Below the pieces are notes generated by a model. The model was not told where the DNA came from and searched no databases. It saw only the letters and a program-made list of their open reading frames with translations. This document shows, in pieces, positions 8,892 through 33,339 of a stretch of 64,000 bases of DNA. The position numbers and the translations under genes are program-made. This DNA is from Massilia sp. erpn (GTDB lineage: Bacteria; Pseudomonadota; Gammaproteobacteria; Burkholderiales; Burkholderiaceae_D), in the NCBI RefSeq assembly GCF_024400215.1, contig NZ_CP053748.1:1674001-1738000 (forward strand), read 5' to 3'. Each line of letters starts with the position of its first letter. Within the stretch, counting starts at the first letter, position 1.

Positions 8892-8892
8892 A

Positions 8893-13444: not shown

Positions 13445-13916
13445 AGGCCAAAAACGATCAATTTTATCGTGAATTAATTACAAAAAATACAAACATCTGT
13501 GGCGGCTGCCGCGCTCAGACATGGTCCTGCTCCCCTGCCATGCCCATCCCACGATCGCCCCACGTTCCTGTGCCGACAAGCACAATATTTACACGTCCAG
13601 CAAGACCCACCACGGCCGCCAATCGCGCACGACCCAACCCTTCCTTCCGGCCAGCCATCCCCTGGAATCAGCGCGCTCTCAGGCAAACCTGGGGAAACCG
13701 CGCAGCAAACCCAGGCCGGTTATTGCCAAATAGAGTTGCAAATTTGAGTTACCACCTTAGCAACGTTGCAGAGTCGGATACTACACACAACAACATCCCC
13801 ACGCAATGCCTGTCTCGGAAAAAAAATCATCGCTTCGTCGCCTGTTGGCAATACCCAACGCTTCCAGCGCAATCAGTGACTGCTTTCCTACAGAAGTCGA
13901 ACACGCTTCACGGCAG

Positions 13917-13943
13917 TTGACGAAAAATTTTCAAATATATAAT
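13917..13943 (+). promoter_or_regulatory. candidate sigma-70 promoter of the NRPS operon
   Basis: TTGACG (13917-13922) and a perfect TATAAT (13938-13943), in an AT-rich stretch. The spacer is 15 bases, shorter than the optimal 17, so activity may depend on an activator. Transcription would start near 13950 and give a leader of about 127 bases before the first NRPS gene. Confidence 0.45.
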
Positions 13944-17000: not shown

Positions 17001-19032
17001 AGTCGCGGTGACCGAAGCGCTGCCGAATGGCTCGGCCAAGTTCGACCTCAGCGTGGTAGGCATCCTGACCAACCGCCAGGGTGCGCAGCCGCTGGAACTG
17101 CTGTTCGAGTACAACGCCGACCTGTTCGATCCAGCCATGGTGGCGCAAATCATGGACAGCTACCGCTGTGTGCTGGAAGCGGTGGTGGCCGCGCCGGCGA
17201 CGCCGCTGCGCGACCTGCCGCTGCAGGCGCCGGACCAGGCGCGCCGCCTGCTGGCCGACTTCAACCAGCACGCGGCCGGCGCCCTGGAAACGCGCTGCCT
17301 GCACCAATTGTTCGAGCTGCAGGTCGCGCGTACCCCGTCCGCCACCGCCCTGCTGTTCGGTGAACAGGCCCTCAGCTACGCCGAACTCAATCTGCGCGCC
17401 AACCGCCTGGCCCATGCCCTGCGCGCCGACGGCGTCGGCCCCGATACCCTGGTCGGCCTGTGCGTCGAGCGCGGCTGCGACATGGTGGTCGGCATGCTGG
17501 CCATCCTCAAGGCCGGCGGCGCCTATGTGCCGCTGGACCCCGACTATCCCGCGCAACGCCTGGCCTATATGCTGGACGATACCCGCGCCCCCGTGCTGCT
17601 GCTGCAGCGCCATCTGGCCGCGCGCCTGCCGCCCCATGCCGCGCGCGTGCACTGGCTCGACGAGGCCGACACCGCCCCCGGCCAGCCGGACGGCAATCCG
17701 CCCAATCGCACGCTGCCCCAGCACCTGGCCTATTGCATCTATACCTCCGGCTCCACCGGCGGACCGAAAGGGGCCATTAACACGCACCAGGGCGTGGCCA
17801 ATCTGCTGGCCTGGTATTGCCCCGGGCAGGCCGGCGGCGAGCGCATCATGCTGGCCAGCTCGCTCAGCTTCGACCTGACCCAGAAAAACATCCTGGGTCC
17901 GCTGCTGGCCGGCGCCACTCTGGTCATTCCCTGCGGCGGCGCCGCCGATGTCGCCGCCTTCCAGGACGCCTTGCAGCGCCATCGCCCCAGCCGCATCAAC
18001 TGCGCCCCTTCCGCCTACCGCGCCTATATGGAAGCTGCTCAGCCGCACAGCCTGCGTACCGTGGTGCTGGGCGGCGAACCGATCGACCAGGCCCTGGCCG
18101 CTGCCCTGGCCGCCCAGGGCATCGCGCTGGTCAACTCCTACGGCCCGACCGAATGCGCCGACGTCGCCCTGTTCCACCGCCAGGAGCCGGATGCGGCAGC
18201 CGGCCCCTTGCCCCTGGGGCGCCCCCTGCCCCATGTCCGGGTCTATGTGCTGGATGCGGCCCTGGTCCCGGTGCCGCCCGGCGTGGCCGGGGAAATCCAC
18301 ATCGCCGGCAGCGGCCTGGCGCGCGGCTACCTGAACCGTCCTGGCCTGAGCGCCGACAGGTTCATTCCCGACCCTTACGGCCCGCCGGGCAGCCGCATGT
18401 ACCGCACCGGCGACCTGGGCCGGCATACCAGCGCCGGCACCATCGAGTTCATCGGCCGGCTTGACCACCAGGTCAAGATCCGCGGCCACCGCATCGAACT
18501 GGGCGAGATCGAACAGGCCCTGCTGCGCTGCCAGGACGTGCGCGAAGCCGTCATTACCGCGCCCGCCGATCCGGCCGGCGAGCGGCGCCTGGTCGCCTAT
18601 GTGGCCGGCACGGCCGGCCGGCTCGACACCGCGGCCCTGAGCCAGCAATTGCAGCAAGTCCTGCCTGCCTATATGCTGCCCGCCGCCTGGGTCGTACTGG
18701 ACGCCTTCCCCCTCAATCCCAACGGCAAGATCGACCGGGCCGCCCTGCCCGCGCCGCTGCCTGCGGCAGCACCATCAACGGCATTGCTGCCGCAGGCAGC
18801 GTGTCCCGAGTTGGCGACGGTGCTGGAGATTCTTTCCGGCCTGCTGCCTGGCATTCAACTGGCCCCCGATGACGACCTGTTTGGCAAAGGCTTGCACTCG
18901 ATTGCCATGATGCGATTCGTCTCACAATGCCAGGAGCGCCTTGGCGTCAGCCTCAAAGTGCGCGATGTATACCGTCTGGCCACCGCCGGCGCTATTGCGC
19001 AAGCTGTCATGGCCAACCGGAGAGCGGCATGA
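14077..19032 (+). CDS. NRPS protein 1, domains A-T-C-A-T
   Basis: 1651 residues. A1 (about 20-530, YTSGSTGQPKG at 169-179), T1 with phosphopantetheine Ser553 in LGGSSL, a C domain with an intact HHxxxDG (742-748), A2 (about 1060-1560) and T2 with Ser1608 in the unusual GLHSI. Having no leading C domain, it is the starter protein. By hand alignment to GrsA, the A1 pocket reads D-A-F-T-I-A-A-I-W-K, close to the Phe code, so a hydrophobic or aromatic residue is likely; A2 reads D-L-K-N-V-G-S-D-V-K, which I cannot assign. There is no E domain. The start codon has only a weak GGA just before it. Its stop overlaps the next start by 4 bases. Confidence 0.95.
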   Translation: MLQISPTANDQWAPGQPQAGSIHRLFEQSVQRDPTAAALADVRETISYGELNQRANRLAHYLLACGIGRGDLVAIHLERSIELITCVLAVLKTGAAYVPLPVELPLSRLQFILRDTGARAILSNTGGTTLADCGARLIGLAQAAEAVGQHADTNPALFWHPQDIAYCIYTSGSTGQPKGVQVPHAGIAALRQAQAEWFGVGPADRVLQFASFGFDAFVFDLVMAFGAGAMLVLRGPQLGAALVDQMVDWKVSIATLPPALLLRTDFRRARYLRCVISAGEACKRAVLDALPPNCELVNAYGPSETTIWASSQRVTPETGIDVPIGHAVAQMRIDLLDQQLRPVAAGQSGEIVIAGPGLARGYLGQPSLTAERFVPDPFGEPGARMYRSGDLGRQRADGAIEFLGRIDNQLKIRGYRVEPGEIENALLAYPGVREAAVVARDDAGGHRRLVAYLVSEQGQPLPIAALRSQLQQSLPEYMVPAAWLQLDALPMTPNGKIDHSALPAPALSREDLGVDYVAPSSPTQQLLAAIWSEILGIERIGIHDGFRTLGGSSLQAVDVAYRVDRALGASWRRPIPFGNTTIAAYAALLDQHSLSAVDIGSGDAASTGAPASYAQEQVCFLERLETDAWRAYRCHALLDLRGPLRPAALEAALNALVARHEILRTSFGESNGRLQRLVAPQLQVVLPCRDLSALPSAAQAHALNEIMARELEHRFDLAQAPLVRWELIKLSEHHHQLLQTEHHNVHDGLSFRILLTDLGALYSAACQQRDAILPVIEAQYGEYCLEELRWRGTSDFQRQLDAWQAHLRPYLDNFDLFSERRRTAQTSFTGGQVRGHLTPALVQQINQVAALLGVSRYALMLAAFGVLCGGYSQKQRFMVGSALANRTSPRYQWTTGMFVNMVPVGVDLGRNTGFSELAQAVSANVDFALAHGAVPLGEIVKKLALSQQLEGKPPFSVGFSFHDSLALNPQFEGLQVAVTEALPNGSAKFDLSVVGILTNRQGAQPLELLFEYNADLFDPAMVAQIMDSYRCVLEAVVAAPATPLRDLPLQAPDQARRLLADFNQHAAGALETRCLHQLFELQVARTPSATALLFGEQALSYAELNLRANRLAHALRADGVGPDTLVGLCVERGCDMVVGMLAILKAGGAYVPLDPDYPAQRLAYMLDDTRAPVLLLQRHLAARLPPHAARVHWLDEADTAPGQPDGNPPNRTLPQHLAYCIYTSGSTGGPKGAINTHQGVANLLAWYCPGQAGGERIMLASSLSFDLTQKNILGPLLAGATLVIPCGGAADVAAFQDALQRHRPSRINCAPSAYRAYMEAAQPHSLRTVVLGGEPIDQALAAALAAQGIALVNSYGPTECADVALFHRQEPDAAAGPLPLGRPLPHVRVYVLDAALVPVPPGVAGEIHIAGSGLARGYLNRPGLSADRFIPDPYGPPGSRMYRTGDLGRHTSAGTIEFIGRLDHQVKIRGHRIELGEIEQALLRCQDVREAVITAPADPAGERRLVAYVAGTAGRLDTAALSQQLQQVLPAYMLPAAWVVLDAFPLNPNGKIDRAALPAPLPAAAPSTALLPQAACPELATVLEILSGLLPGIQLAPDDDLFGKGLHSIAMMRFVSQCQERLGVSLKVRDVYRLATAGAIAQAVMANRRAA
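17107..18756 (+). repeat. A-domain repeat, copy 1
   Basis: Segment encoding the end of the C domain, the linker and nearly the whole A2 domain of NRPS 1. It aligns without gaps to copy 2 (17173-18756 with 24216-25799) and copy 3 (17107-18603 with 27598-29094), with only scattered base differences. The flanking C and T domains are clearly different, so the near-identity is confined to the A-domain unit. Confidence 0.9.
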
Positions 19033-21665
19033 ACGACAGCCGGCAGCCGGTTTCGGCAATGGCAGCAGGCGAGCACCTGACCCCTCGCGGGACCCATGGG
19101 TGGTCGTTCTGGCGTGCCGTGGAATGTCGTACCGCGGGCTTTCCGGTGACACTGGCAACGGGCTTCGCGGATCCGGCCTGCAGCCTTGCCGCTGACCGTT
19201 GCAACGAGGCGGTAAGGGATGCGGAGCAGCGCTGGGAAGCGGTGAGAAGTGATGTCAAGCAACGCATCAAGACCCAGCTGGATGTGCTGCGCCAGCTGCG
19301 CGACAGCGCTGCGGATACGGCCGCGCTGGATGCGGCGATCCGCAGCCTGCGCGCTTCGGTCAAGCTGATCGACCGGCGCCAAACGGGGCAGGCGCTGGGC
19401 GCGCAGCTGGAGGCCGAACAGTATGCGCAGCTGTGCCACGCGGAAGACGAGCGTCAGCGCCACCTAGCTTGCTATACGCAAGCATTCGCGCAGGCCGCCC
19501 AACGCTCTCTCGACTATGCCACAGGGTTGGCGGCCAGTTCGCGTTTCCGCGAGGCCGTCACGTGGCAAAACTGGGAAGTGCTGCACAAAGTGCTGGATGT
19601 CCTGGCCGACGAGCATACCGGCAAGACGCGCCGGCACCGCAGCGAAGAACTCGTCGCCCGGTATGGGCAACGCTATGCGACCAAGAACGATACGATTGGC
19701 TTTTTCGGCCCGGTGGGTTGGGCCAGCATCGTTTATCACGCGGCGCCGCTGCGGGTGGAAGCGGGCAAATCCTTGCTGGCGCGGCGCAGCGTGTACTTTG
19801 AGGACTGGGCCATCCAGGCCGTCGCAGCCCAGCTGTCGACCTTGGCCGGCATGCGCCCTTGGTGCACGCCGCAGCGCATGCCTTTTCTCCGGATCGAGGG
19901 AACGACCCTGTATTTGCCGGGCAATGCGACCCAGCGGCTGAGCGCGGAAGAGGCCGCGCTGTTGCGGGCCTGCGATGGCCGGTGCACAGCGCAGCAGATT
20001 GCCGCCGTATTGGCGATGCAGCCGATGCTGGCGTTTGATGGCGCGCATGACGTGTATGCGCTGCTGGAACAGCTGGCGGCCGCGCAACGCATCAGCTGGG
20101 GCTTGGTGGTGCGCGTGGGGGATGCCTGGCCGGAACGTCATCTGCGCAGCCAGCTGGAAGTGATCAGCGAACCGTCGCTGCGCCAGACCGCCCTGGCCAC
20201 GCTGGATCGCCTCGTGCAGGCGCAACACCAGGTGCACGCTGCGGCAGGCGACGCAGTACGGGTCGAACAGGCTTTGGCGCATCTGAACGCTACCTTTGAA
20301 ACCGTGACCGGCCATGCCGCCAAACGCTGCGCCGGCGAAACATACGGTGCGCGCACCGTGGTATACGAGGATTGTGTACGCGACATGCAGGTGCACCTGG
20401 GTTGGCCGCTGGCTGAGCGCCTGCAGGCCGCACTGGAACCCTTGCTGCTCAGCGCACGCTGGTATTGCCATCGGCTGGCGCAACGCTTCAACGACACCGC
20501 CGCCGGGATTTGGCAGCGGACCGCGGCGGCGGCACCCGGCCAGGAACGCGCAGTCGACTTCCCGACGTTCTGGGTCCATGCGCAATCACTCTTCTTTGGC
20601 GAGGAGCGCCTGGACTGCGCTGCGCTGCAGGCCGAGCTGGCGGCCCGCTGGTCGGCCTTGCTGGCGCCGGCCGCCGATGCCCGGGCCCTGCAACGATCCA
20701 GTGCGGCGCTGGGAAACACCGCCCGCGAGATGTTCGCCGCACCCGACTGCGGCTGGCGTGCCGCCTGCCATCACAGCCCCGATGTGATGATTGCGGCCGC
20801 AGACAGCGCCGCAGTCTGCCGCGGCGAGTTCCAGTTTGTGCTCGGCGAGCTTCATCTCGGCTTGAACACCCTGATCAATTATTCGGCGCTGAACCAGGCC
20901 CCTTCCGCTCAGGCATTGCTGCACATGCTGAAGACGGACCGCGGCGCACCGCGCATCTTGCCCATTGTCTCCCGCGCTGCGGCGCGCCAGCCTATCCGGG
21001 TCCAGACGGTGCGCGACGCTGGCTATGATATCGAGCTGTGCTTCTCACATGACGCCCGCCCGCTGGCTCCTGAGCATGCGCTGCAGATTGGCGAGCTGGA
21101 AGTCGTCGCCGCTGCGGAAGGCCTGGTGGTGCGCACGCGCGACCGCAAGCGGCAATTTGCGCTGACCGAGGTCTTCGGCGAATTTTTGTCCGGCCTGGCG
21201 GCGGATCAGTTCCGTATCCTGGCGCCAGCCCCGCGCCACCCGCGGATAACGATCGACAAGCTGGTGATTCAACGGGAAACCTGGCACTTTCCATGCGCCG
21301 ACCTGGCGCTGTTTGACGCCAAGGACGAAGCCCAATGCTTCCGCGAGGTCCGCCAATGGCGCGCAATGCAGGACATGCCGCGCCGGGTGTTTGTCAAGCT
21401 ATCGTGGGAAAGAAAACCATTTTTCATCGATTTCGATAGTCCGCTGCTGGTGCGCATGCTCGCCAAGCAGGTGCGCCATGCCCGTTCCCTGCCCACGCTG
21501 TCGTCAGCACGGGCCAGCTTCAGCGAAATGCTGCCCACGCCGGACCAGGCATGGCTTGCCGATGCCGAGGACCTGCGCTATACCAGCGAATTGCGCTTGG
21601 TCGCGGTGCACGCTGACGACCTTGCACCTTCTACCGGCAGCGCCTCCAGGGAGCCCACCATATGA
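19029..21665 (+). CDS. LanB-type lantibiotic dehydratase homologue
   Basis: 878 residues from the ATG at 19029, which overlaps the NRPS stop (ATGA) and has GGAG upstream. It resembles the N-terminal (glutamylation) domain family of lantibiotic dehydratases: RYATKNDTIGFFGPVGWASI around 215-234 corresponds to the LanB TPFG region, and YEDCVRDMQVHLG followed by LLLSARWYCHRLAQRF is typical of actinobacterial-style members. LanB enzymes use aminoacyl-tRNA (usually Glu-tRNA) to activate Ser/Thr side chains; related PEARL proteins add an amino acid to a peptide C-terminus. No LanC and no convincing precursor peptide is nearby, so here it probably acts on the NRPS peptide. Which tRNA it uses is unknown. 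Confidence 0.75.
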   Translation: MNDSRQPVSAMAAGEHLTPRGTHGWSFWRAVECRTAGFPVTLATGFADPACSLAADRCNEAVRDAEQRWEAVRSDVKQRIKTQLDVLRQLRDSAADTAALDAAIRSLRASVKLIDRRQTGQALGAQLEAEQYAQLCHAEDERQRHLACYTQAFAQAAQRSLDYATGLAASSRFREAVTWQNWEVLHKVLDVLADEHTGKTRRHRSEELVARYGQRYATKNDTIGFFGPVGWASIVYHAAPLRVEAGKSLLARRSVYFEDWAIQAVAAQLSTLAGMRPWCTPQRMPFLRIEGTTLYLPGNATQRLSAEEAALLRACDGRCTAQQIAAVLAMQPMLAFDGAHDVYALLEQLAAAQRISWGLVVRVGDAWPERHLRSQLEVISEPSLRQTALATLDRLVQAQHQVHAAAGDAVRVEQALAHLNATFETVTGHAAKRCAGETYGARTVVYEDCVRDMQVHLGWPLAERLQAALEPLLLSARWYCHRLAQRFNDTAAGIWQRTAAAAPGQERAVDFPTFWVHAQSLFFGEERLDCAALQAELAARWSALLAPAADARALQRSSAALGNTAREMFAAPDCGWRAACHHSPDVMIAAADSAAVCRGEFQFVLGELHLGLNTLINYSALNQAPSAQALLHMLKTDRGAPRILPIVSRAAARQPIRVQTVRDAGYDIELCFSHDARPLAPEHALQIGELEVVAAAEGLVVRTRDRKRQFALTEVFGEFLSGLAADQFRILAPAPRHPRITIDKLVIQRETWHFPCADLALFDAKDEAQCFREVRQWRAMQDMPRRVFVKLSWERKPFFIDFDSPLLVRMLAKQVRHARSLPTLSSARASFSEMLPTPDQAWLADAEDLRYTSELRLVAVHADDLAPSTGSASREPTI

Positions 21666-22957
21666 GCGGCAACGCACTTCCACCTCTCCCGAAATCGGCG
21701 CTGACCCTGGTGGTCAGCCGCGGTCTCAGCGGCATCGGTTCCTCATTGACCGTTTTCGGCCTGGACGTTTGGCTGTTCCGCAGCACGGGCTCCTATACAA
21801 TCTTCGCCTATATGGCCGTGCTGGCTTCCCTGCCTACCCTGGTGTTTGCACCGTTTGCCGGCATGGTCACCGATCGCTACAACCGGCGTGCGCTGCTCTT
21901 GCTGTGCGACCTGGTCTCCTTGCTGATGGTGGCGGCACTGCTGGCTTGCTACTGGTATGGCAAGCTGGGCACCGTCATGATTGGGCTGGCGATCGTGGTG
22001 CTGGCGCTGGCCACCGAGCTGCGCTGGTCGGCATTGAGCAGCGTGCTACCCTCGCTGGCCCCCAAAGAACAATTGATGCGCTTGAACGGCCTGCAGCAGT
22101 CGTTCCGTGGCGTCACCGTCATGCTCGGCCCGATGATCGGGGCTATCGGCCTCAACACGCTGGGATTGTCGCTGCTGCTGGCGGTCGACATCGCCACCTA
22201 TTTGATCGGCATTCTCGGGCTGGCCCGGATACGCCTGCCGGCGGCGGCGCCAACGCCGCGGCACGGCATGGGCTTCTGGAGTGAGCTCAGCTTCGGCGTG
22301 CGCTGGGTTGCCCGGCAGCCTGGCCTGCGCCGCCTGTTGTGCTTCTTCATGATCATTAATATTGGTGTTTCTGTTTTCACCAGCACCTTTGCCCCCTACC
22401 TGCTCTCGTTCACCACCAATACCGTGCTGGCCGGCAGCCTGGGGCTGCAAGGCATGGGCGCCTTCCTGACCGGTATTTTGCTCTCCCGGCATCACCTGGT
22501 GAAGAACAACGAAGCCGCCATTGTCGGCGGGGCAGTGTGCTTTGGAGTGTGCATGCTGGCCTGGGGCCTGTCACGCCATCCCGCAGCGCTGTGGCTGACC
22601 GCCGTACTCCTGGGTTCACTGGCCAGCATGATCATGGCGGCCAGCAATACGATCTGGCAATCCCATGTCCCGAACGAGATCCAGGGCAAGGTCTTCGCCG
22701 TCCGCTCCATGCTGTCGTATGGCTTGACGCCGTTGTCGGTTTTCCTGTCGGCGCCATTCGCCTCTGCCGTCTTACAGCCATTGCTGCTCAGGGCGCCCCA
22801 ACTCTCGGCCATTTGGGGAGAGGCATCTGCCGGCGCGCTGGGCTTGATGGTTTCCGTGCTTGGGCTGGGCGTGATCGCCAGTTCCGTCATTGTGCTGGGC
22901 CAGGGCGGGCTGCGCCTGTCCGAGCCGGCACCTTCCATTTTGCGTCCGCTCTCTTAA
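21662..22957 (+). CDS. MFS exporter
   Basis: 431 residues with about 12 hydrophobic segments and the MFS loop motif between helices 2 and 3 (GMVTDRYNRRALL). The layout resembles the EntS/MFS_3 group of siderophore and drug exporters. Start overlaps the LanB-like stop by 4 bases. As the only exporter inside the operon it is the best candidate to move the product, or an intermediate, out of the cytoplasm. Energy source would be the proton gradient. Confidence 0.9.
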   Translation: MSGNALPPLPKSALTLVVSRGLSGIGSSLTVFGLDVWLFRSTGSYTIFAYMAVLASLPTLVFAPFAGMVTDRYNRRALLLLCDLVSLLMVAALLACYWYGKLGTVMIGLAIVVLALATELRWSALSSVLPSLAPKEQLMRLNGLQQSFRGVTVMLGPMIGAIGLNTLGLSLLLAVDIATYLIGILGLARIRLPAAAPTPRHGMGFWSELSFGVRWVARQPGLRRLLCFFMIINIGVSVFTSTFAPYLLSFTTNTVLAGSLGLQGMGAFLTGILLSRHHLVKNNEAAIVGGAVCFGVCMLAWGLSRHPAALWLTAVLLGSLASMIMAASNTIWQSHVPNEIQGKVFAVRSMLSYGLTPLSVFLSAPFASAVLQPLLLRAPQLSAIWGEASAGALGLMVSVLGLGVIASSVIVLGQGGLRLSEPAPSILRPLS

Positions 22958-22958
22958 T

Positions 22959-25900
22959 ATGACACTGCATCCGCTCACTACCGCACAACAAGGCTTGTGG
23001 TTCCTCAGCCAATTCGATCAACTGACCAATGCCGCCTACACCATGGTGTACGCATTTGAAGCCAGCCACGACCTGGAGGAAGGCAAGCTGCGCCAAGCAT
23101 TGGCCATCCTGAGCAAGCGCCATCCCATGCTGCGCTCCCGGATCACGCCGGTCGGCGGCATTCCCCATATGGAAGTGCGCGACGCTGACCAAGGCGCGGC
23201 ACTACCGCTGAGCCAGTCCTGCGAGACCATCGATGCCGTCGCCAGCATGCAAAGCGCGCTGCCGTTCGATACGCAGGAACAGCATCTGTACCGGGTCGTC
23301 ATGGTCGCCCCCGCGTTGACACCGCCATCCCGGCCGGGCCTGGTGTTTGCTTTCCACCACATCATGTTCGACAACGCGTCGGCGCACGCCTTCTTCCTCG
23401 AATTGTCCCAGCTGTATACGGAACTCGCCGCAGGCCGCATGGCCGAGGCCAGCGGCCTGCCCGTCAGCCTGGAAGCGGCCGTGAGTGCCGAACAGGCTTT
23501 TATGGAAAGCGCGCAGGGCATTGCGGAAACCGAGCAGGCGGTAGCACGCCTGCGCGGCATTCCCAGCAGCCTGGCCCTGCCGCGCAAGCGCCCGCGTGGC
23601 GATGATGAAGTCGTCTTCCCCGCCGCATTCGCGGTTGTGCCGCTGCCGGCCGCCTTGGCCAGCGCTGTGGCGGAACAGGCCCGGCGCCTGCGTGCCACCC
23701 CGGCGGCGGTCTATCTGTCCGCGTTTCAATTGCTGCTATGGCAGTACAGCGGCCAACATGACTTCGGCGTGGCCATTCCGGTAGCCAACCGCAGGCATGA
23801 CGTGCCGGAATCGGCGCTCGGATATTTTGTCAATATGGGCATCGTCCGCGCCGCGATCTCGCCGTCGGCCAGCGGCGCCGATCTGATCGCCTCCGTACGC
23901 GACCAGCTATTCGATACGATGGACCTGGCGGCCGTGCCATTCCCCATTCTTGCCAAGAGGCTCAAGCGTGGCGGCGATGATATTCAGGGCCCGTTGCAGC
24001 AGATAGGCTTTAATTATTTGCATGGGCAACAGCGCAGCTGGCAGTTCGGCGCCTGCCGGCTGGTCGCGCAAGCGACCCGGCCCAGCTACAGCAAAAACGA
24101 ATTCAAACTCGATATCCAGGAATCGGATGGCGAAGTGGAGTGCTGCTTCCTGTATGACGGCAGTGGCTACGACGCGCTGCTGATCCAGCAAATGGCGGCA
24201 CATTACCGCTATTTGCTGGAAGCGGTGGTGGCCGCGCCGACGACGCTGCTGCGCGACCTGCCGCTGCAGGCGCCGGACCAGGCGCGTCGCCTGCTGGCCG
24301 ACTTCAACCAGCACGCGGCCGGCGCCCTGGAAACGCGCTGCCTGCACCAATTGTTCGAGCAGCAGGTCGAGCGTACACCTTCCGCCACCGCCCTGCTGTT
24401 CGGCGAACAGGTCCTCAGCTACGCCGAACTCAATCTGCGCGCCAACCGCCTGGCCCATGCCCTGCGCGCCGACGGCGTCGGCCCCGATACCCTGGTCGGC
24501 CTGTGCGTCGAGCGCGGCTGCGACATGGTGGTCGGCATGCTGGCCATCCTCAAGGCCGGCGGCGCCTATGTGCCGCTGGACCCCGATTATCCCGCGGAAC
24601 GCCTGGCTTATATGCTGGACGATACCCGCGCCCCCGTGCTGCTGCTGCAGCGCCACCTGGCCGCGCGCCTGCCGTCCCATGCCGCGCGCGTGCACTGGCT
24701 CGACGAGGCCGGCACCGCCCCCGGCCAGCCGGACGGCAATCCGCCCAATCGCACGCTGCCCCAGCACCTGGCCTATTGCATCTATACCTCCGGCTCCACC
24801 GGCGGACCGAAAGGGGCCATTAACACGCACCAGGGCGTGGCCAATCTGCTGGCCTGGTATTGCCCCGGGCAGGCCGGCGGCGAGCGCATCATGCTGGCCA
24901 GTTCGCTCAGCTTCGACCTGACCCAGAAAAACATCCTGGGCCCGCTGCTGGCCGGCGCCACCCTGGTCATTCCCTGCGGCGGCGCCGCCGATGTCGCCGC
25001 CTTCCAGGACGCCTTGCAGCGCCATCGCCCCAGCCGCATCAACTGCGCCCCTTCCGCCTACCGCGCCTATATGGAAGCGGCACAGCCGCACAGCCTGCGT
25101 ACCGTGGTGCTGGGCGGCGAACCGATCGACCAGGCCCTGGCCGCTGCCCTGGCCGCCCAGGGCATCGCGCTGGTCAACTCCTACGGCCCGACCGAATGCG
25201 CCGACGTCGCCCTGTTCCACCGCCAGGAGCCGGATGCGGCAGCCGGCCCCTTGCCCCTGGGGCGCCCCCTGCCCCATGTCCGGGTCTATGTGCTGGATGC
25301 GGCCCTGGTCCCGGTGCCGCCCGGCGTGGCCGGGGAAATCCACATCGCCGGCAGCGGCCTGGCACGCGGCTACCTGAACCGTCCCGGCCTGAGCGCCGAC
25401 AGGTTCATTCCCGACCCTTACGGCCCGCCGGGCAGCCGCATGTACCGCACCGGCGACCTGGGCCGGCATACCAGCGCCGGCACCATCGAGTTCATCGGCC
25501 GGCTTGACCACCAGGTCAAGATCCGCGGCCACCGCATCGAACTGGGCGAGATCGAACAGGCCCTGCTGCGCTGCCAGGACGTGCGCGAAGCCGTCATTAC
25601 CGCGCCCGCCGATCCGGCCGGCGAGCGGCACCTGGTCGCCTATGTGGCCGGCACGGCCGGCCGGCTCGACACCGCGGCCCTGAGCCAGCAATTGCAGCAA
25701 GTCCTGCCTGCCTATATGCTGCCCGCCGCCTGGGTCGTACTGGACGCCTTCCCCCTCAATCCCAACGGCAAGATCGACCGGGCCGCCCTGCCCGCGCCGG
25801 CAAACGACCGTATCGGTGCCCCCGCGGACAGCATTCAGCCAAGCACACCGACCGAGAAACTGCTGGCGGAAATCTGGGCCACCGTGCTGAAGCGCGAGCA

Positions 25901-26138
25901 AATCAGTCTCAATGACAATTTTTTCATGCTGGGCGGCCATTCACTGCTTGCCTCCCAAGTGGTGGCAAAAATCCGCGAACGCAAAGGCTACGCGGTGCCG
26001 TTGCGTATGCTGTTTGACGCACCAACCGTTGCCGAGCTCGCCCGACAACTCGATTCCTTGCCGCCGCAATCACGGACGCGCCCTGAAATCACGCCGATCG
26101 CACGGCAGGCGCGGAACGCCTTTAAAAAACGTGTCTGA
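22959..26138 (+). CDS. NRPS protein 2, domains C-A-T
   Basis: 1059 residues from the ATG at 22959, one base after the MFS stop; no strong ribosome-binding site is seen, so coupling is likely. The C domain carries HHIMFDN (133-139): both His and Asp of HHxxxDG are kept but Gly is Asn. The A domain (about 430-945) is almost identical to those of NRPS 1 (A2) and NRPS 3 and has the same predicted pocket, D-L-K-N-V-G-S-D-V-K. T domain Ser995 in LGGHSL. No E or TE domain. It should add the third residue of the chain. Confidence 0.95.
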   Translation: MTLHPLTTAQQGLWFLSQFDQLTNAAYTMVYAFEASHDLEEGKLRQALAILSKRHPMLRSRITPVGGIPHMEVRDADQGAALPLSQSCETIDAVASMQSALPFDTQEQHLYRVVMVAPALTPPSRPGLVFAFHHIMFDNASAHAFFLELSQLYTELAAGRMAEASGLPVSLEAAVSAEQAFMESAQGIAETEQAVARLRGIPSSLALPRKRPRGDDEVVFPAAFAVVPLPAALASAVAEQARRLRATPAAVYLSAFQLLLWQYSGQHDFGVAIPVANRRHDVPESALGYFVNMGIVRAAISPSASGADLIASVRDQLFDTMDLAAVPFPILAKRLKRGGDDIQGPLQQIGFNYLHGQQRSWQFGACRLVAQATRPSYSKNEFKLDIQESDGEVECCFLYDGSGYDALLIQQMAAHYRYLLEAVVAAPTTLLRDLPLQAPDQARRLLADFNQHAAGALETRCLHQLFEQQVERTPSATALLFGEQVLSYAELNLRANRLAHALRADGVGPDTLVGLCVERGCDMVVGMLAILKAGGAYVPLDPDYPAERLAYMLDDTRAPVLLLQRHLAARLPSHAARVHWLDEAGTAPGQPDGNPPNRTLPQHLAYCIYTSGSTGGPKGAINTHQGVANLLAWYCPGQAGGERIMLASSLSFDLTQKNILGPLLAGATLVIPCGGAADVAAFQDALQRHRPSRINCAPSAYRAYMEAAQPHSLRTVVLGGEPIDQALAAALAAQGIALVNSYGPTECADVALFHRQEPDAAAGPLPLGRPLPHVRVYVLDAALVPVPPGVAGEIHIAGSGLARGYLNRPGLSADRFIPDPYGPPGSRMYRTGDLGRHTSAGTIEFIGRLDHQVKIRGHRIELGEIEQALLRCQDVREAVITAPADPAGERHLVAYVAGTAGRLDTAALSQQLQQVLPAYMLPAAWVVLDAFPLNPNGKIDRAALPAPANDRIGAPADSIQPSTPTEKLLAEIWATVLKREQISLNDNFFMLGGHSLLASQVVAKIRERKGYAVPLRMLFDAPTVAELARQLDSLPPQSRTRPEITPIARQARNAFKKRV
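24216..25799 (+). repeat. A-domain repeat, copy 2
   Basis: Near-identical, gap-free copy of the NRPS 1 segment 17173-18756. Homology begins within the C-A linker (at the codons for LEAVVAAP) and ends at the A10 motif (NGKIDRAALPAP). The upstream C-domain sequence is unrelated at the DNA level, giving a sharp left edge. Confidence 0.9.
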
Positions 26139-26161
26139 ACAAGACAGCAACTGGAGCAATG

Positions 26162-26353
26162 ATGGAGCAAGCTATTTTTGTCGTCGTTAAAAATGATGAA
26201 GAACAATATTCGATCTGGCAGGCGGAACGCGAGGTGCCGGCAGGCTGGCATGTGCAGCCTTGCCGAGGCCCGAAAGAGGAATGCCTCAACTACATCGAGC
26301 AAAACTGGACGGATATGCGTCCTGCAAGCCTGAAACGGGCAATGACAAACTGA
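26162..26353 (+). CDS. MbtH-like protein
   Basis: 63 residues from the ATG at 26162 (GGAG 5 bases upstream); an ATG at 26159 directly before it lies too close to that site. The family signature is complete: EEQYSIWQ, VPAGWHVQPC, and the C-terminal YIEQNWTDMRPASLKR with the invariant Trp residues. MbtH proteins bind the A-domain core and are needed for solubility or activity of many adenylation domains. Its place between NRPS 2 and NRPS 3 suggests that at least some of the A domains here depend on it. Confidence 0.97.
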   Translation: MEQAIFVVVKNDEEQYSIWQAEREVPAGWHVQPCRGPKEECLNYIEQNWTDMRPASLKRAMTN

Positions 26354-26379
26354 TTAACCGCGGCGGACAAGGCAATGCT

Positions 26380-29300
26380 ATGGATGCACAAGAAAAAGAC
26401 CGTTTTCCCGCTTCGTTTTCCCAGCGACAGCTCTGGTTTCTTGAGCAGTTCGAACCCGGTTCGGCAAGATACAATGTGCCGGCGATCTGGCGGCTTCGTG
26501 GCGCGCTCGATATCGATGCGCTCGAGCGCAGCCTGAACGAGATTGTCCATCGCCACGAAATACTGCGCACCACGTTCACAGATGGCGCGGAAGGCGCCAT
26601 GCAACTGATCAGCGCCACGCTGTCGATCACTCTGGATGTCGCTGACCTGTGCGGCCAGGACGAGGCCTGGCACGAAGGCCTGGAACTGGCGCGCGCCTAC
26701 GGTCAAACACCGTTCGACTTGGCCAACGGCCCCCTGCTCCGCGCCGGGCTGGTGCAACTGGCGGCGGATGACCATTTGTTCATTCTCGTGCTGCACCATA
26801 TCGTGACCGATGGCTGGTCGATGGAAGTATTGATCCGTGAACTGAGCGCCTTGTATTGCGCCGAGCGGGAAGGGCAGCCCGCCACCCTGAAGGCTCTGCC
26901 CATCCAGTACGCGGATTATTCGGCATGGCAAAACGACTGGATGACGGGCGAGGTACTGGAAGAGCACCTCGCCTATTGGCGTTCCCGGCTGCATAACGCA
27001 GCGCCTGCGCTGGACTTGCCGACCGCACGCCGTGCTATGGGCGCACAGGGCCAGCGTGCCGCATATATTCCCTTCAATTTGGAGCCGGAGATTTGCGCAG
27101 CGCTGGAACAGTTGAGCAAGCAGGCGCAGACCACCCTGTTCAGCACGCTGGCGACCGCGCTGGGTACGGTATTGTTCCGCTATAGCGGCCAGGCCGACCT
27201 TTGCATCGGTTACCCCGTTGCTTGCCGCAATTATCCCGAAATACAGGACTTGATCGGCTTTTTTGTCAACACGCTCGTCTTGCGCATGCAGATGGAGCCG
27301 CATCAATCATTTGCTTCGCTGCAAAAGCAAGTCGCCAAATCTGTGCTTGATGCCAACGACTTCCAGGAACTCCCCTTCAGCAAGCTGGTGGAGGATCTGC
27401 GTCCGGGCCGGGCCGTGCAGCGTTCTCCGATATTCCAGGTGCTGTTCTCGTATTATTCGTCCAGCAGCACGGCTGCGGGCTGCGGCCTGTCCCTGTCCGG
27501 CATCCAGGCCGACATCGTCCCCTGCGACAGCGAAGTTGCAAAATTCGACTTGACGCTGGAATTGGTGATGCGCGACGGACGCATAGTCGGCGTCATGGAG
27601 TACAACGCCGACCTGTTCGATCCAGCCATGGTGGCGCAAATCATGGACAGCTACCGCTGTGTGCTGGAAGCGGTGGTGGCCGCGCCGGCGACGCTGCTGC
27701 GCGACCTGCCGCTGCAGGCGCCGGACCAGGCGCGCCGCCTGCTGGCCGACTTCAACCAGCACGCGGCCGGCGCTCTGGAAACGCGCTGCCTGCACCAATT
27801 GTTCGAGCTGCAGGTCGAGCGTACCCCGTCCGCCACCGCCCTGCTGTTCGGCGAACAGGCCCTCAGCTACGCCGAACTCAATCTGCGCGCCAACCGCCTG
27901 GCCCATGCCCTGCGCGCCGACGGCGTCGGCCCCGATACCCTGGTCGGCCTGTGCGTCGAACGCGGCTGCGACATGGTGGTCGGCATGCTGGCCATCCTCA
28001 AGGCCGGCGGCGCCTATGTGCCGCTGGACCCCGACTATCCCGCAGAACGCCTGGCCTATATGCTGGACGATACCCGCGCCCCCGTGCTGCTGCTGCAGCG
28101 CCACCTGGCCGCGCGCCTGCCGTCCCATGCCGCGCGCGTGCACTGGCTCGACGAGGCCGGCACCGCCCCCGGCCAGCCGGACGGCAATCCGCCCAATCGC
28201 ACGCTGCCCCAGCACCTGGCCTATTGCATCTATACCTCCGGCTCCACCGGCGGACCGAAAGGGGCCATTAACACGCACCAGGGCGTGGCCAATCTGCTGG
28301 CCTGGTATTGCCCCGGGCAGGCCGGCGGCGAGCGCATCATGCTGGCCAGCTCGCTCAGCTTCGACCTGACCCAGAAAAACATCCTGGGCCCGCTGCTGGC
28401 CGGCGCCACCCTGGTCATTCCCTGCGGCGGCGCCGCCGATGTCGCCGCCTTCCAGGACGCCTTGCAGCGCCATCGCCCCAGCCGCATCAACTGCGCCCCT
28501 TCCGCCTACCGCGCCTATATGGAAGCGGCACAGCCGCACAGCCTGCGTACCGTGGTGCTGGGCGGCGAACCGATCGACCAGGCCCTGGCCGCTGCCCTGG
28601 CCGCCCAGGGCATCGCGCTGGTCAACTCCTACGGCCCGACCGAATGCGCCGACGTCGCCCTGTTCCACCACCAGGAACCGGATGCGACAGCCGGCCCCTT
28701 GCCCCTGGGGCGCCCCCTGCCCCATGTCCGGGTCTATGTGCTGGATGCGGCCCTGGTCCCGGTGCCGCCCGGCGTGGCCGGGGAAATCCACATCGCCGGC
28801 AGCGGCCTGGCGCGCGGCTACCTGAACCGTCCTGGCCTGAGCGCCGACAGGTTCATTCCCGACCCTTACGGCCCGCCGGGCAGCCGCATGTACCGCACCG
28901 GCGACCTGGGCCGGCATACCAGCGCCGGCACCATCGAGTTCATCGGCCGGCTTGACCACCAGGTCAAGATCCGCGGCCACCGCATCGAACTGGGCGAGAT
29001 CGAACAGGCCCTGCTGCGCTGCCAGGACGTGCGCGAAGCCGTCATTACCGCGCCCGCCGATCCGGCCGGCGAGCGGCGCCTGGTCGCCTATGTGAGTGTT
29101 CAGCCCACCGCCAAGTCCCTTACCGGTACGCAGCTGCAGTCGCAGTTGTTCGAGGTCCTGCCGGCCTATATGGTGCCGACATGCTGGGTCATCCTCGACA
29201 AACTCCCGCTCAATGGGAACGGCAAGGTCGACCGCGCGGCGCTGCCAGCGCCAGACACGCGCGAACGGCTCGCCAGCCACGCGGCCAATGAACCGATGAC

Positions 29301-29532
29301 GCCGCTGGAAAGCCAGGTGGCGCAGCTCTGGCAAGAGCTGCTGGCATGCAAGCACGTGGGCCTGGATGATAATTTCTTCGAGCTCGGCGGGCATTCCCTG
29401 CTGGTGACGGACTTGCTGTTACGTGTGCGCAAGCAATGTGGGGTGGTGCTCTCGACCAAGAGCATCTACATCGCGCAAGACCTGCAATCATTCTGCGGCC
29501 TGATCAACCAACGCAGCAAACAGCTTGCCTGA
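26380..29532 (+). CDS. NRPS protein 3, domains C-A-T, no release domain
   Basis: 1050 residues from the ATG at 26380, with AAGG 7 bases upstream. The C domain has the canonical HHIVTDG (139-145). The A domain repeats the sequence of the two previous modules and the pocket D-L-K-N-V-G-S-D-V-K. T domain with Ser1006 in LGGHSL; the protein ends about 45 residues later. No thioesterase, reductase or terminal C domain follows, here or as a separate gene in the operon. It should load the fourth and last residue, and release must be carried out by another protein or by spontaneous cyclisation. Confidence 0.95.
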   Translation: MDAQEKDRFPASFSQRQLWFLEQFEPGSARYNVPAIWRLRGALDIDALERSLNEIVHRHEILRTTFTDGAEGAMQLISATLSITLDVADLCGQDEAWHEGLELARAYGQTPFDLANGPLLRAGLVQLAADDHLFILVLHHIVTDGWSMEVLIRELSALYCAEREGQPATLKALPIQYADYSAWQNDWMTGEVLEEHLAYWRSRLHNAAPALDLPTARRAMGAQGQRAAYIPFNLEPEICAALEQLSKQAQTTLFSTLATALGTVLFRYSGQADLCIGYPVACRNYPEIQDLIGFFVNTLVLRMQMEPHQSFASLQKQVAKSVLDANDFQELPFSKLVEDLRPGRAVQRSPIFQVLFSYYSSSSTAAGCGLSLSGIQADIVPCDSEVAKFDLTLELVMRDGRIVGVMEYNADLFDPAMVAQIMDSYRCVLEAVVAAPATLLRDLPLQAPDQARRLLADFNQHAAGALETRCLHQLFELQVERTPSATALLFGEQALSYAELNLRANRLAHALRADGVGPDTLVGLCVERGCDMVVGMLAILKAGGAYVPLDPDYPAERLAYMLDDTRAPVLLLQRHLAARLPSHAARVHWLDEAGTAPGQPDGNPPNRTLPQHLAYCIYTSGSTGGPKGAINTHQGVANLLAWYCPGQAGGERIMLASSLSFDLTQKNILGPLLAGATLVIPCGGAADVAAFQDALQRHRPSRINCAPSAYRAYMEAAQPHSLRTVVLGGEPIDQALAAALAAQGIALVNSYGPTECADVALFHHQEPDATAGPLPLGRPLPHVRVYVLDAALVPVPPGVAGEIHIAGSGLARGYLNRPGLSADRFIPDPYGPPGSRMYRTGDLGRHTSAGTIEFIGRLDHQVKIRGHRIELGEIEQALLRCQDVREAVITAPADPAGERRLVAYVSVQPTAKSLTGTQLQSQLFEVLPAYMVPTCWVILDKLPLNGNGKVDRAALPAPDTRERLASHAANEPMTPLESQVAQLWQELLACKHVGLDDNFFELGGHSLLVTDLLLRVRKQCGVVLSTKSIYIAQDLQSFCGLINQRSKQLA
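27598..29094 (+). repeat. A-domain repeat, copy 3
   Basis: Gap-free near-identical copy of NRPS 1 bases 17107-18603, starting at the codons for EYNADLFDPAM in the C domain end and stopping inside the A-domain C-terminal subdomain (after RLVAYV). Past that point the NRPS 3 sequence diverges abruptly, so the right edge differs from that of copies 1 and 2. Confidence 0.9.
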
Positions 29533-29588
29533 TGACAGCGGCCACGCAGCATGGTGCGTTTTCCCATATCACGACTTAGAGCAGATTC

Positions 29589-31940
29589 ATGACACTTCCC
29601 CAAACCAGCCTCGTCCGCCAGGCAGTACGCTGTGAATCAGCGCAGGATTACCGCCGCGTTGCCAGCCTGCGGCCCCTGCCGGGGCAACCGCCGGTCTTCG
29701 TGCCTTACCTGGTAGAACAGGGCGAAACGCCCACGCCGGTAGTGGCCCTCATCGAACAGCAATACGCCGCCATCAGGTTTTCCGACTTCCATCCCGCGGC
29801 GGCGCCCATCCGGCCGCAGCCGGCTGACGGGGCTGTCACGTCGCCGCCCACCGCTTCGGTCGTGCTCAGCCTCTCGGCCGCAACGCTCGACTGCGCATCC
29901 TGCTTGGCCATGGCAACGGGGCGCTCCCACCATACCGCGGCCAGCCCGGCCGACATTGAGATGGTCGCGGCCGGACTGGGACCGCACGGTTCCCTGCTGG
30001 TGATGGGCGAACTGGGCGAATTCACCCCGGTGCTGATACGTCTTTTATCCCTGCTCTCGCTCCAGCACAGTATCGGCGTGCTGTGTGCCCATTCCTACGC
30101 GGGATTGACCCAGGTCGTCGCCTGGCGCATTCTGCAGCAGGCGGCGGCGCCCAAGGGCCGGCATTTCCTGATGCTGCCCGATATGGTGCTGGCCGATGCT
30201 TTCCGTGACGACAATACGACCAGCTTGTACTCGGCGGCCTTCACGCCACCGTCAGCGGACGAAGAATACGACTTCATCGGCGTCGGGGGACATGGCAACT
30301 CGATCCATGTCGACCTCGGCTCCCGGCACACCTTATGCGGTAAGCGGCAAAACGGGCGGCAAAACCGCGACTATGCGCTCAGCAATGGCTGCCAATCCGC
30401 TGCGCTGTGCATCATCGCTCCCGGCAGGCAGTTGCTGCCGCTGGACCAGTTGCGCGCCCGCCTATTCCTGGTGCAAACCTGCATGGGGATCGCATTGGGC
30501 GACCCCTTCCATTCGCCCGACCTGAGCCTGCCAATTGGTGCCATTGAATGTGGTGCCCTCGGCTATTTGTCCAGCACCAAGGTCGTGAAAAGCCGCGCTA
30601 TCTATGCCGCCATGGTATCGAGTGCCCTGCGTTCAGGCTACAGCATGGGGGAATGCGCCAGCCTGCTCGGCCGCCTGCATGTCGATGCCTGCCGCGAACC
30701 GGCCAGCCACCTGCTGTTCGGTGATCCGGAAGTGCGCTTGACCGCGCCGCAAGCGGGTTCCTGGCAGCTGGAGTGGCATCCCGATCTAGCCGGCCGCGCC
30801 GTCGAGCTTACCTTGACCGCCGATAGCCAGCACCGGCTTTATCGCTGCGAGCTGCCGCGCCAACAGTGGGGCCAGGTGGCGCCGCAAGCGTTCCGGCTGG
30901 CCCACGTGAGCGCGCTCACGGCCGACGGCATGCCGGCACCGGCGCCGTTCATTGAAATTTACCCCACTGACACCTCGCTGGTGCTGCTGTGCGTGAGCGC
31001 GCAAGCGGCTGGCGGGATGCGGTACCGGATCCGCATATCCTGGGACGATCAGCCGGCCCAGGATATGGCCGCGCTGGCGCGGCGCATCGGTCTGAACCTG
31101 GTCGGCTTGCGCGCGGTCGCCGCCTATCTTGATCAGCAGAACAAACACGGCCCGCTCGAGGGCCGGCAAGCGTTTGCCGCGGCGTTGCAACGACTGTCCA
31201 GCGGCGGCGATGCCTTGCAGCCAGCCCTATCCGCACTATGCTACGATCTGCGCCCCTGCAACACTCTGGCGCTGGAAAATTACCAGTTAGCCGAGTCTGA
31301 AACCGAACTCATCCTGGACCGCATGGATCAATTGGCCCGCGCCGAAATATCGCAAGCCGGCGGCTGGCGGCATAACGATTACTTCACCAGTATGTTTGAA
31401 CCGACCTACACCACGGAATCGGAGCAGCAGAGCGCATTACGCTGTGGCGGCTGCGCAGCGCAAACGGACTTCAGCATACGCCGCTCCGTGTTCTACCCTG
31501 ACGCCTTGCGGCATACCTGGCACTGCCAGCGCTGCCAGCAGGTACTCGATCGGCCGGCCGAGGGGATGGACATCCGTCTCGAAACCAGCAAGGCCGTCTG
31601 TGCGGGCGACAAGCTTTTGCTGAAAATCCACGCCCACAACCCGCTGCGCCTGCGCGCGCGGGCCTGCGGCATCGTGCGCGTGCATAACAAGGAACAGGGG
31701 CCGCTTCTGGTATCCGAGGAGATTGCGCCGCTGTACATTGATTTGCAGCCACAGCAAAACAGCAGCATTGAATTGACGCTGTGCATAGACCATCAGGCCA
31801 TGATCGGGCACCACCGGATTTCGCTGCTGTATATCTCGGAATTTGGCCTGGCCTGCGCCAACAGCAGCCTGCACGTGGCGCCCCGCGAAAGCAAGGCGGC
31901 GCGGCCGGTCATGATCGCCCGGCCACGCCGCCCAACCTGA
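29589..31940 (+). CDS. caspase/gingipain-fold (clan CD-like) protein with zinc ribbon
   Basis: 783 residues, not recognised as a named family. The middle resembles clan CD cysteine peptidases: a hydrophobic strand then His-Gly (FIGVGGHGN, H235), a second strand then Cys (LFLVQTCMG, C298), and LLFGDPEVRL (376-384), which recalls the LLGDP segment of gingipain-type C25 enzymes. Later there is a four-Cys zinc ribbon (C619, C622, C646, C649) and a beta-rich C-terminus. No signal peptide, so it is probably cytoplasmic. It is the last gene of the NRPS operon, 56 bases after an NRPS lacking a thioesterase. Transfer, cleavage or release of the bound peptide is possible but only inferred. Confidence 0.6.
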   Translation: MTLPQTSLVRQAVRCESAQDYRRVASLRPLPGQPPVFVPYLVEQGETPTPVVALIEQQYAAIRFSDFHPAAAPIRPQPADGAVTSPPTASVVLSLSAATLDCASCLAMATGRSHHTAASPADIEMVAAGLGPHGSLLVMGELGEFTPVLIRLLSLLSLQHSIGVLCAHSYAGLTQVVAWRILQQAAAPKGRHFLMLPDMVLADAFRDDNTTSLYSAAFTPPSADEEYDFIGVGGHGNSIHVDLGSRHTLCGKRQNGRQNRDYALSNGCQSAALCIIAPGRQLLPLDQLRARLFLVQTCMGIALGDPFHSPDLSLPIGAIECGALGYLSSTKVVKSRAIYAAMVSSALRSGYSMGECASLLGRLHVDACREPASHLLFGDPEVRLTAPQAGSWQLEWHPDLAGRAVELTLTADSQHRLYRCELPRQQWGQVAPQAFRLAHVSALTADGMPAPAPFIEIYPTDTSLVLLCVSAQAAGGMRYRIRISWDDQPAQDMAALARRIGLNLVGLRAVAAYLDQQNKHGPLEGRQAFAAALQRLSSGGDALQPALSALCYDLRPCNTLALENYQLAESETELILDRMDQLARAEISQAGGWRHNDYFTSMFEPTYTTESEQQSALRCGGCAAQTDFSIRRSVFYPDALRHTWHCQRCQQVLDRPAEGMDIRLETSKAVCAGDKLLLKIHAHNPLRLRARACGIVRVHNKEQGPLLVSEEIAPLYIDLQPQQNSSIELTLCIDHQAMIGHHRISLLYISEFGLACANSSLHVAPRESKAARPVMIARPRRPT

Positions 31941-31962
31941 GCCGGCGCACAGCCAGCCGGGC

Positions 31963-33339
31963 TTAAGAACGGCTGACCTGAGCCCCCTCGGGCCGGTCGG
32001 CAATAGCAAAGCCGCGTGCCTCGATTTCCTTGCGCAGGCGGTCCGATTCCGACCAGTTCTTATCGGCGCGGCATTGCTCGCGCCGGCTCACCAGTTCCAG
32101 GATGTCAGCCGGGATGGCATCTTGCGAAGCTGGCTGCCATTCGCTCAGGCGCAGGCCCAGCACCTTATCCAACACGGCCAGCGTCGCCTTCTTATCCCCG
32201 TCCGGCACGCCGCTCTTGACCAGTTCCCAGACCAGCGCAAGCGCCCTCGGCGTGTTTAAGTCCTGGTTAATCAGCTCAGTAAAGCGCGCGATATATTCCG
32301 GATCGGCGGTGCCCCCTGGCGGCCAGGCGTGGAAATGCTTGCGCAGGCGTTCCAAGGCGGTCTGCGCCGCCTGCAATGGCTCCCAGGCGAAATTGAGGTG
32401 GCCACGATAGTGCGCAGTCAAGCACAGGTAACGGTAAGCCAATGGATCGATCCCGCGGTCGATAAGGTACTGCAGGCGCAGGAATTCACCGCTCGACTTG
32501 GACATTTTTTCCTGGTCCAGCTGCAGGAAATAACCATGCATCCAGAAATTGGCCAGCCGGGTGCCATGGCACGCCTTATTTTGTGCAATTTCGTTCGTAT
32601 GGTGGACCGCCAGATGGTCTTCACCGCCGCAATGGATATCGAACCACGGCTCCAGATACTTGGACGCCATGGCCGAGCATTCAATGTGCCAGCCGGGGAA
32701 GCCGACGCCCCAAGGGCTGTCCCATTCCATTTGGCGGACTTCACCCGGCGGGCTGAATTTCCACAACGCAAAATCGGTAATATTGCGTTTTTCCCCCAGC
32801 GCCACCCGGGCTCCGGCGGCGAGTCCCTCTTTGTCCAGGCGCGCCAAATACCCGTAATCGTCCTGCTTCGATGTATCGAAATAAACTCCGTCGCCGGTGA
32901 TATAGGTATATCCTTTTTCCTCCAGCGTCTGCACGAACGCAATCTGCTCGGGAATATGCTCGGTGGCCTTGCACCAGATAACCGGGGGTTCGATATTCAG
33001 TTGCCCCAGGTCTTCCATAAAGGCTTGCGTATACCGTTGCGCGATCACCCAGGCGGATTCGCCCCGGCGCCGGCTTTGGCGTTCCATTTTATCCTCGCCC
33101 TCGTCGGCATCGGACAGCAGATGCCCGACATCGGTGATATTCATGACATGGCGCACGGAATGGCCATTAAACTCCAGCGTACGACGCAAGATGTCTTCAA
33201 ACAGATAGGTCCGCAGATTGCCGATATGGGCATAGTCATAGACAGTCGGACCGCAGCAATACAGGCCGACCCAATCCTGACGCATCGGTGTAAATTGGCG
33301 GAGGGATCGCTCCCAATTATCGTATAGAAAAATATTCAT
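31963..33339 (-). CDS. cysS: cysteinyl-tRNA synthetase, divergent type
   Basis: 458 residues from the ATG at 33339, close to the usual ~460. Class I signatures: CGPTVYDYAHIGN (HIGH at 38-41), KMSKS at 278-282, zinc-site Cys/His residues (CCGPTVY, GWHIECSAM, HCGGEDH), a DALR-type region (INQDLNTPRALALVWEL) and the usual C-terminal helix ending RGFAIADRPEGAQ. So it is a complete CysRS, not a short MshC. Where most proteobacterial enzymes have NITDIDDKI, this one has NITDVGHLLSDADEGEDKME, the mark of a different CysRS subgroup. It is last in the operon starting with the AurF-like gene. It may supply Cys-tRNA to the LanB homologue, form an amide with an amine as MshC does, or be a resistance copy. 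Confidence 0.92.
   Translation of the reverse strand: MNIFLYDNWERSLRQFTPMRQDWVGLYCCGPTVYDYAHIGNLRTYLFEDILRRTLEFNGHSVRHVMNITDVGHLLSDADEGEDKMERQSRRRGESAWVIAQRYTQAFMEDLGQLNIEPPVIWCKATEHIPEQIAFVQTLEEKGYTYITGDGVYFDTSKQDDYGYLARLDKEGLAAGARVALGEKRNITDFALWKFSPPGEVRQMEWDSPWGVGFPGWHIECSAMASKYLEPWFDIHCGGEDHLAVHHTNEIAQNKACHGTRLANFWMHGYFLQLDQEKMSKSSGEFLRLQYLIDRGIDPLAYRYLCLTAHYRGHLNFAWEPLQAAQTALERLRKHFHAWPPGGTADPEYIARFTELINQDLNTPRALALVWELVKSGVPDGDKKATLAVLDKVLGLRLSEWQPASQDAIPADILELVSRREQCRADKNWSESDRLRKEIEARGFAIADRPEGAQVSRS

Follow-up and report, generated by a model that had tools for sequence, protein, structure and literature searches.

A LanB-like protein encoded within a nonribosomal peptide synthetase (NRPS) operon of Massilia sp. 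erpn is probably a Gram-negative PEARL of the SnaE type, which would extend the ureido end of the NRPS product with an amino acid from aminoacyl-tRNA. This action is best read as tailoring and not as chain release. The stretch of DNA analysed as a whole (the window; 64,000 nucleotides) is part of a complete genome of 6.15 Mb. The closest known system is the sna (threopeptin) pathway of Stackebrandtia nassauensis described by Yu and van der Donk, in which SnaA, an A-T-C-A-T NRPS whose C domain carries EHHXXHDG, the signature published for ureido-forming C domains, couples two Arg via urea, and the LanB-like SnaE adds Thr to the carboxylate freed by SnaA chain reversal (PMC10769383, PMC11212132). 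This published precedent appears to explain the step at the window locus better than either release or modification of a hydroxyl, and the reading would place sna-type chemistry (ureido chain reversal, then tRNA-dependent carboxylate extension) in Gram-negative bacteria. New here are the Gram-negative setting, an extra cysteinyl-tRNA synthetase (CysRS) in two clusters and the occurrence of PEARL residues far beyond ureido pathways.

The + strand operon holds, in order, NRPS1, the LanB-like gene, an MFS transporter gene, NRPS2, NRPS3 and the gene for a 783-aa protein, with ATGA overlaps at both the NRPS1/LanB junction (the LanB-like ATG overlaps the NRPS1 stop at 19029-19032) and the LanB/MFS junction. 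At 22 bases past the 783-aa gene lies a facing - strand operon, the last gene of which encodes the CysRS, preceded by M20, phosphatase-like, epimerase, DegT, 262-aa and AurF-like genes. When the stretches of relatives were compared, the gene content common to the window and to a related genome, G324, spanned 1620 to 39155. The features are as follows.

1620-8933, - strand: genes for a TonB receptor, an M24 peptidase, an enolase-superfamily enzyme, an SDR, an ATP-grasp protein and a C26 peptidase, common to the G324 cluster.
14077-19032, + strand: NRPS1, A-T-C-A-T (Pfam: two AMP-binding, one Condensation, two PP-binding).
16297-16320, + strand: EHHNVHDG, the active-site motif in the C domain of NRPS1 (residues 741-748), of ureido type (published signature EHHXXHDG; PMC10769383, PMC11212132).
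19029-21665, + strand: LanB-like protein, 878 aa, read as a SnaE-type PEARL from Pfam, residues and fold.
20781-20855, + strand: D585 and E607-x-H609 of the putative PEARL, ATP-grasp-like set (residue alignment).
21588-21596, + strand: E854-x-R856 of the putative PEARL (residue alignment).
21662-22957, + strand: MFS transporter, probable exporter (Pfam; adjoins LanB in other loci too).
22959-26138, + strand: NRPS2, C-A-T, start inferred (Pfam).
26380-29532, + strand: NRPS3, C-A-T, without thioesterase, start inferred (Pfam).
29589-31940, + strand: 783-aa protein, a candidate release enzyme on the reading of its caspase/gingipain-like motifs (H235, C298) only.
31963-33339, - strand: second CysRS, type 2 (family model, motifs, tree).
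33485-34690, - strand: M20 peptidase, acetylornithine deacetylase-like (family match; kept in G324).
34718-35248, - strand: dual-specificity-phosphatase-like protein (below the Pfam cut-off; kept in G324).
35249-36334, - strand: NAD-dependent epimerase/dehydratase (family match; kept in G324).
36274-37443, - strand: DegT-type aminotransferase (family match; kept in G324).
37440-38228, - strand: 262-aa protein without a family match (kept in G324).
38244-39155, - strand: AurF-like N-oxygenase (family match; kept in G324).

The sole Pfam match of the LanB-like protein is Lant_dehydr_N (PF04738), at 86.8 bits against a cut-off of 28 (E 0.001), and its fold is that of tRNA-dependent glutamylation domains. 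The elimination domain, which class I lantibiotic dehydratases carry fused or encoded apart (PF14028), was found neither in this protein at the same E value nor by genome search in the whole window genome (G000), in G324 or in G170; the positive control, six of six actinobacterial genomes, contained it. Judged by its sequence, the protein is not a dehydratase. An Asp and an Arg have been reported to tell PEARLs apart from LanBs, these being Asp542 and Arg803 in TglB, with Glu801 at the ATP site (PMC11117183). The window protein has D585, R856 and E854 at what, by published numbers, spacing and invariance, are the equivalent positions, and the spacing of D585, E607-x-H609 and E854-x-R856 matches that reported for TglB (PMC11117183). 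These PEARL-type residues are near-invariant across 100 LanB-like rows, mostly from NRPS-linked loci (D585, E607, H609 and R856 in 100/100, E854 in 99/100). For the residues that reportedly grip the 3' end of the tRNA (PMC11962472) there are likewise equivalents by published numbering, namely Y212 in 99/100 rows and R215 and R442 in 100/100. Two positions of BhaBC are less well kept: Q201 is without a counterpart (L208 in the window protein), and R197 corresponds to R204, which is mostly Q in relatives. By published numbering the ATP-grasp-like set and the tRNA-end residues are shared with the PEARLs TglB, BhaBC and AmmB (PMC11117183, PMC11962472); these are described as acting on ribosomal scaffold peptides, whereas none was identified at the window locus. 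An RRE-like region is nevertheless kept in the LanB-like protein, though no precursor peptide is known. A PDB sequence search with this protein alone returned nothing useful.

The NRPS that directly precedes the LanB-like gene combines the A-T-C-A-T order with EHHNVHDG, so that the cluster encodes an NRPS with the active-site motif of ureido-forming C domains. Both this arrangement and a stand-alone PF04738 protein with the same PEARL-type residues and without an elimination domain are common to the window and sna as published (PMC11212132, PMC10769383). The window differs from sna in that no PKS module was seen and in having two further NRPS modules, the extra CysRS and a caspase-like protein; the SnaE-like locus of genome G442 has other A-domain codes than the window, and the donor in sna is Thr. 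The A-T-C-A-T order and the ureido motif (EHHNVHDG) recur in the NRPSs that precede LanB in G170 and G324, and in G213 the end of the contig cuts NRPS1. In an IQ-TREE analysis, five EHHXXHDG C domains fell on one side of one branch among 43 domains drawn from 21 loci, 16 of them hand-picked (SH-aLRT 87, not strong support); FastTree, run on the same set of domains, did not bring the five together.

The nine-letter code of the first A domain, DAFTIAAIW, is identical in the window, G324 and G170 and agrees at seven letters with what we take to be the GrsA-Phe code; a Phe-like first residue would be our guess. The other three A domains of the window read DLKCVGSDV, and the second A domain of G170 differs from that of the window. 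Over 1365 bases each, the A-domain stretches 17221-18585, 24264-25628 and 27712-29076 have 98.5-98.8% DNA identity, and the 300-600 bases upstream of them have only about 24-31%; these near-identical stretches point to the NRPS genes having recently undergone gene conversion or internal swapping. The C domain of NRPS2 has FHHIMFDN in place of HHxxxDG and sits on a long branch, and its activity appears uncertain.

In the mechanism that we propose, NRPS1 (A-T-Curea-A-T) would link a pair of amino acids by a urea in head-to-head fashion, and the carboxylate of the first residue, perhaps Phe-like, would stay free and beyond activation by the assembly line. The PEARL would use ATP to phosphorylate this ureido-end carboxylate, which the amino group of an aminoacyl-tRNA would then attack; the tRNA would be hydrolysed off, leaving a peptide one residue longer in the direction opposite to that of the NRPS, and NRPS2 and NRPS3 would extend the other end. 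The domain order, the ureido signature, the PEARL-type residues, the fold and the lack of an elimination domain are established here by sequence, and we infer the reaction, the substrate and the order of steps. The preliminary description had recognized a LanB homologue inside the NRPS operon, had seen no elimination partner and had noted that the NRPS lacks a thioesterase; all of this holds, the last in that none is among the Pfam matches of NRPS1-3. It had also proposed a tRNA-dependent tailoring or release step, of which an aminoacyl-tRNA-dependent enzyme acting on an NRPS product is supported, with no loss of the tRNA-binding surface seen and equivalents of the reported tRNA 3'-end residues kept, but release is not, since the target of SnaE is a free carboxylate at the chain start. 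Its suggestion that a hydroxyl side chain is modified finds no support, given the PEARL-type residues and the missing elimination domain.

The CysRS gene of the facing operon (start inferred from translation; the ORF opens at 33423) encodes a protein that scores 419 bits with TIGR00435 (cut-off 340), has catalytic and C-terminal anticodon-binding domains above the Pfam cut-offs and DALR just below, and contains the HIGN, KMSKS and metal-site motifs. The other CysRS of the genome, at C1:5669858, scores 444.8 bits against 310. The cluster copy is a bona fide second CysRS and, as had been claimed, complete. The adjoining sugar-type genes prompted us to consider an MshC-like ligation of Cys to an aminosugar; this was rejected, since the MshC score was 221.4 bits (cut-off 485.1) and enzymes of this CysRS type are the sole CysRS match in 23/25 genomes of the genus g33. 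Type 2 CysRS (at least 594 bits) was present in 69/294 family genomes, and since in g33 it is mostly the only match, it can serve as a housekeeping CysRS. Its pattern, sole match in one genus and second copy elsewhere, looks as if it had spread horizontally. The genome sets for this search, for the LanB and AurF searches and for the wider LanB search described below are even samples of larger groups.

Both the window genome and G324 have type 2 plus canonical CysRS, whereas G170, G213 and G357 have the canonical enzyme alone. In G324 about 9 kb separate the CysRS gene from the M20 gene and 17 kb separate it from NRPS1, with common cluster genes in the intervening DNA, and the gene orders of the two clusters differ. 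The two CysRSs are sisters (support 0.895), and AurF above 380 bits was found only in these two genomes among 392. Among all LanB loci scanned, the flanks of which are often short, a CysRS was found in G324 only, and none of the cluster genes tested was present at 12/12 other type 2 CysRS loci examined. Since the only other LanB locus scanned that has a CysRS is that of G324, which shares the AurF/DegT/M20 block, the CysRS tracks this larger block and not the ligase. Regular co-occurrence of CysRS and LanB, on which the preliminary description had staked its pairing of the two genes, is thus lacking, which weakens the pairing but not tRNA use as such, because the relatives could use their housekeeping CysRS.

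The CysRS goes with the larger variant of the cluster and, by precedent, may serve for self-resistance, for the supply of Cys-tRNA or for both. Extra aminoacyl-tRNA synthetases in clusters with aminoacyl-tRNA-dependent chemistry are described for ascamycin (AcmD/AcmF, with AcmD acting in resistance and supply) and for SbzA; AcmF is AlaRS-like and SbzA IleRS-like, and neither is given as a PEARL (PMC12945691). A cluster with its own CysRS makes donor choice and self-resistance testable together. It is a serious possibility, short of probable, that the type 2 enzyme is purely a self-resistance copy, insensitive to a product or precursor that inhibits the canonical CysRS and unrelated to the PEARL step. 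In its favour, the enzyme is a second, divergent and complete CysRS that tracks the AurF/DegT/M20 block rather than LanB, the precedents just cited fit, and the cluster's TonB receptor gene would suit a product taken up by cells. However, that receptor gene is also found in G170 and G357, both without type 2 CysRS; just two clusters carry the enzyme, no inhibitor is known, and our literature search returned no report of CysRS self-resistance in biosynthetic clusters. The same search gave no report of CysRS, NRPS and lantibiotic dehydratase in combination, the nearest item concerning thiaglutamate.

Alternatively, the CysRS could be a hitchhiker or general second copy beside the cluster with no part in the pathway, as its frequency in the family, its standing as the sole CysRS match in most g33 genomes and the 12 loci devoid of cluster genes would allow. 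We regard this as rather unlikely, since the gene lies among common cluster genes in both clusters despite their different gene orders and the CysRSs of the two clusters group as sisters.

The SnaE-type reading includes, as a special case, a Cys-adding PEARL with its own supplier, in which the cluster CysRS would charge tRNA-Cys and Cys would be added at the ureido end. TglB is reported to add Cys (PMC11962472), and the joint presence of both genes in the window and G324 clusters, with sister CysRSs, is consistent with such a supply. Against it, G170 and G213, with LanBs 53-54% identical to that of the window, manage with canonical CysRS, none of the other LanB loci scanned has a CysRS and type 2 CysRS is common where there is no LanB (69/294 genomes); we consider the case unlikely. 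We know of no need for a CysRS in TglB clusters. The fuller combination, in which the cluster CysRS would charge tRNA-Cys, the PEARL would add Cys at the reversed end, the CysRS would withstand the product and the caspase-like enzyme would replace a thioesterase, is decidedly doubtful.

How far the ligase depends on a ureido domain was judged from its relatives. LanB above 500 bits was found in five of 392 family genomes (the window genome, G324, G170, G213 and G357) and in 3/74 genus-search genomes (G000, G324 and G357), with no further close LanB. A genome_contigs scan with the single LanB protein gave no relative; with the LanB alignment 319 stretches matched, of which the best 80, representing 76 loci, were retained. 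A wider search matched 127/300 genomes, from which 20 regions in 19 genomes were taken (18 rows and two G442 pieces), and plasmid records gave 16 LanB relatives, all actinobacterial. The 100 rows comprise the window, G324, G170, G213, G357, G442, the 76 genome_contigs loci and the 18 further regions (L046-L121 and L206-L223), with at least three duplicates among them (L046/G213, L053/G357 and L091/L219). G442 has, on a contig of 6,841,557 bases, one SnaE-like LanB gene beside EHHLVHDG; its product is only 34% identical to the window protein, and the two fall in a clade of 11 (FastTree support 0.894).

Within the stretches examined, the ureido motif lies beside 5/100 LanB rows. The only carrier among the 76 genome_contigs loci (best of 319 matches) is L072, and the motif is present at 0/41 LanB loci flanked by 9 kb or more on each side; NRPS similarity was found in 67/76 of the genome_contigs loci (again best of 319 matches). 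On these counts the ligase family as a whole appears not to depend on a ureido domain, and most of its members would have to reach their carboxylate by another route, making the substrate route of PEARL-type ligases without the motif a testable question. The window protein could likewise act on another carboxylate, an acidic side chain or a released C-terminus, as the 95 rows without EHHXXHDG would suggest. However, the motif is present in G170 and G324, the nearest relatives for which upstream sequence exists, and at the SnaE-like locus, and for the window we think action on another carboxylate quite improbable.

That the protein glutamylates Ser/Thr of a nonribosomal peptide for dehydration would fit PF04738 and the glutamylation-domain fold, as in the glutamylation domains or dehydratases TbtB, MibB, NisB, MadB and GodF, but is very hard to reconcile with a genome lacking an elimination domain and with D585 and R856, where split LanBs such as TbtB reportedly have Tyr and Leu in place of the Asp and Arg of PEARLs (PMC11117183). 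Albopeptide, considered as a LanB precedent, proved to be the wrong one; its dehydrations are described as the work of C domains (PMC10880069).

The SnaE-type reading leaves chain release to another enzyme. The last NRPS of G170 ends C-A-T-C-T-TE, and in the window and G324 the gene for the 783-aa protein stands in place of the C-T-TE of G170; among the LanB loci scanned, only G324 has a relative of this protein. Its GHG and TC-G motifs (H235 and C298), kept in the G324 homologue at 41% identity, are presumably clan CD-like (caspase/gingipain), and release might conceivably be carried out by this caspase-like protein. It has no Pfam or NCBIfam match, a PDB sequence search gave nothing useful and a fragment model reached a pLDDT of 36.5. 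The protein also has a CxxC-type zinc-like stretch.

Several further genes lie in or near the cluster. An FMO-like monooxygenase gene and a B12-type radical SAM gene (9623-13382), next to NRPS1, are without a counterpart in the relatives' stretches compared, and a 160-aa ORF (13438-13920) matches no Pfam or NCBIfam family and lacks a counterpart in the stretches of six relatives. The 262-aa protein gave no useful match in a PDB sequence search. An MFS gene adjoins LanB in G324, G170, G213, G357 and L047 as well. In G324, G170 and G357, too, a TonB-dependent receptor gene (1620-3833 in the window) accompanies the NRPS-LanB genes, which suggests product uptake or a metal-linked role. Finally, the G324 cluster has a GCS2 gene (glutamate-cysteine-ligase-like; L147:14542-15939) near its C26 peptidase gene, and a gamma-glutamyl protection step is possible there.
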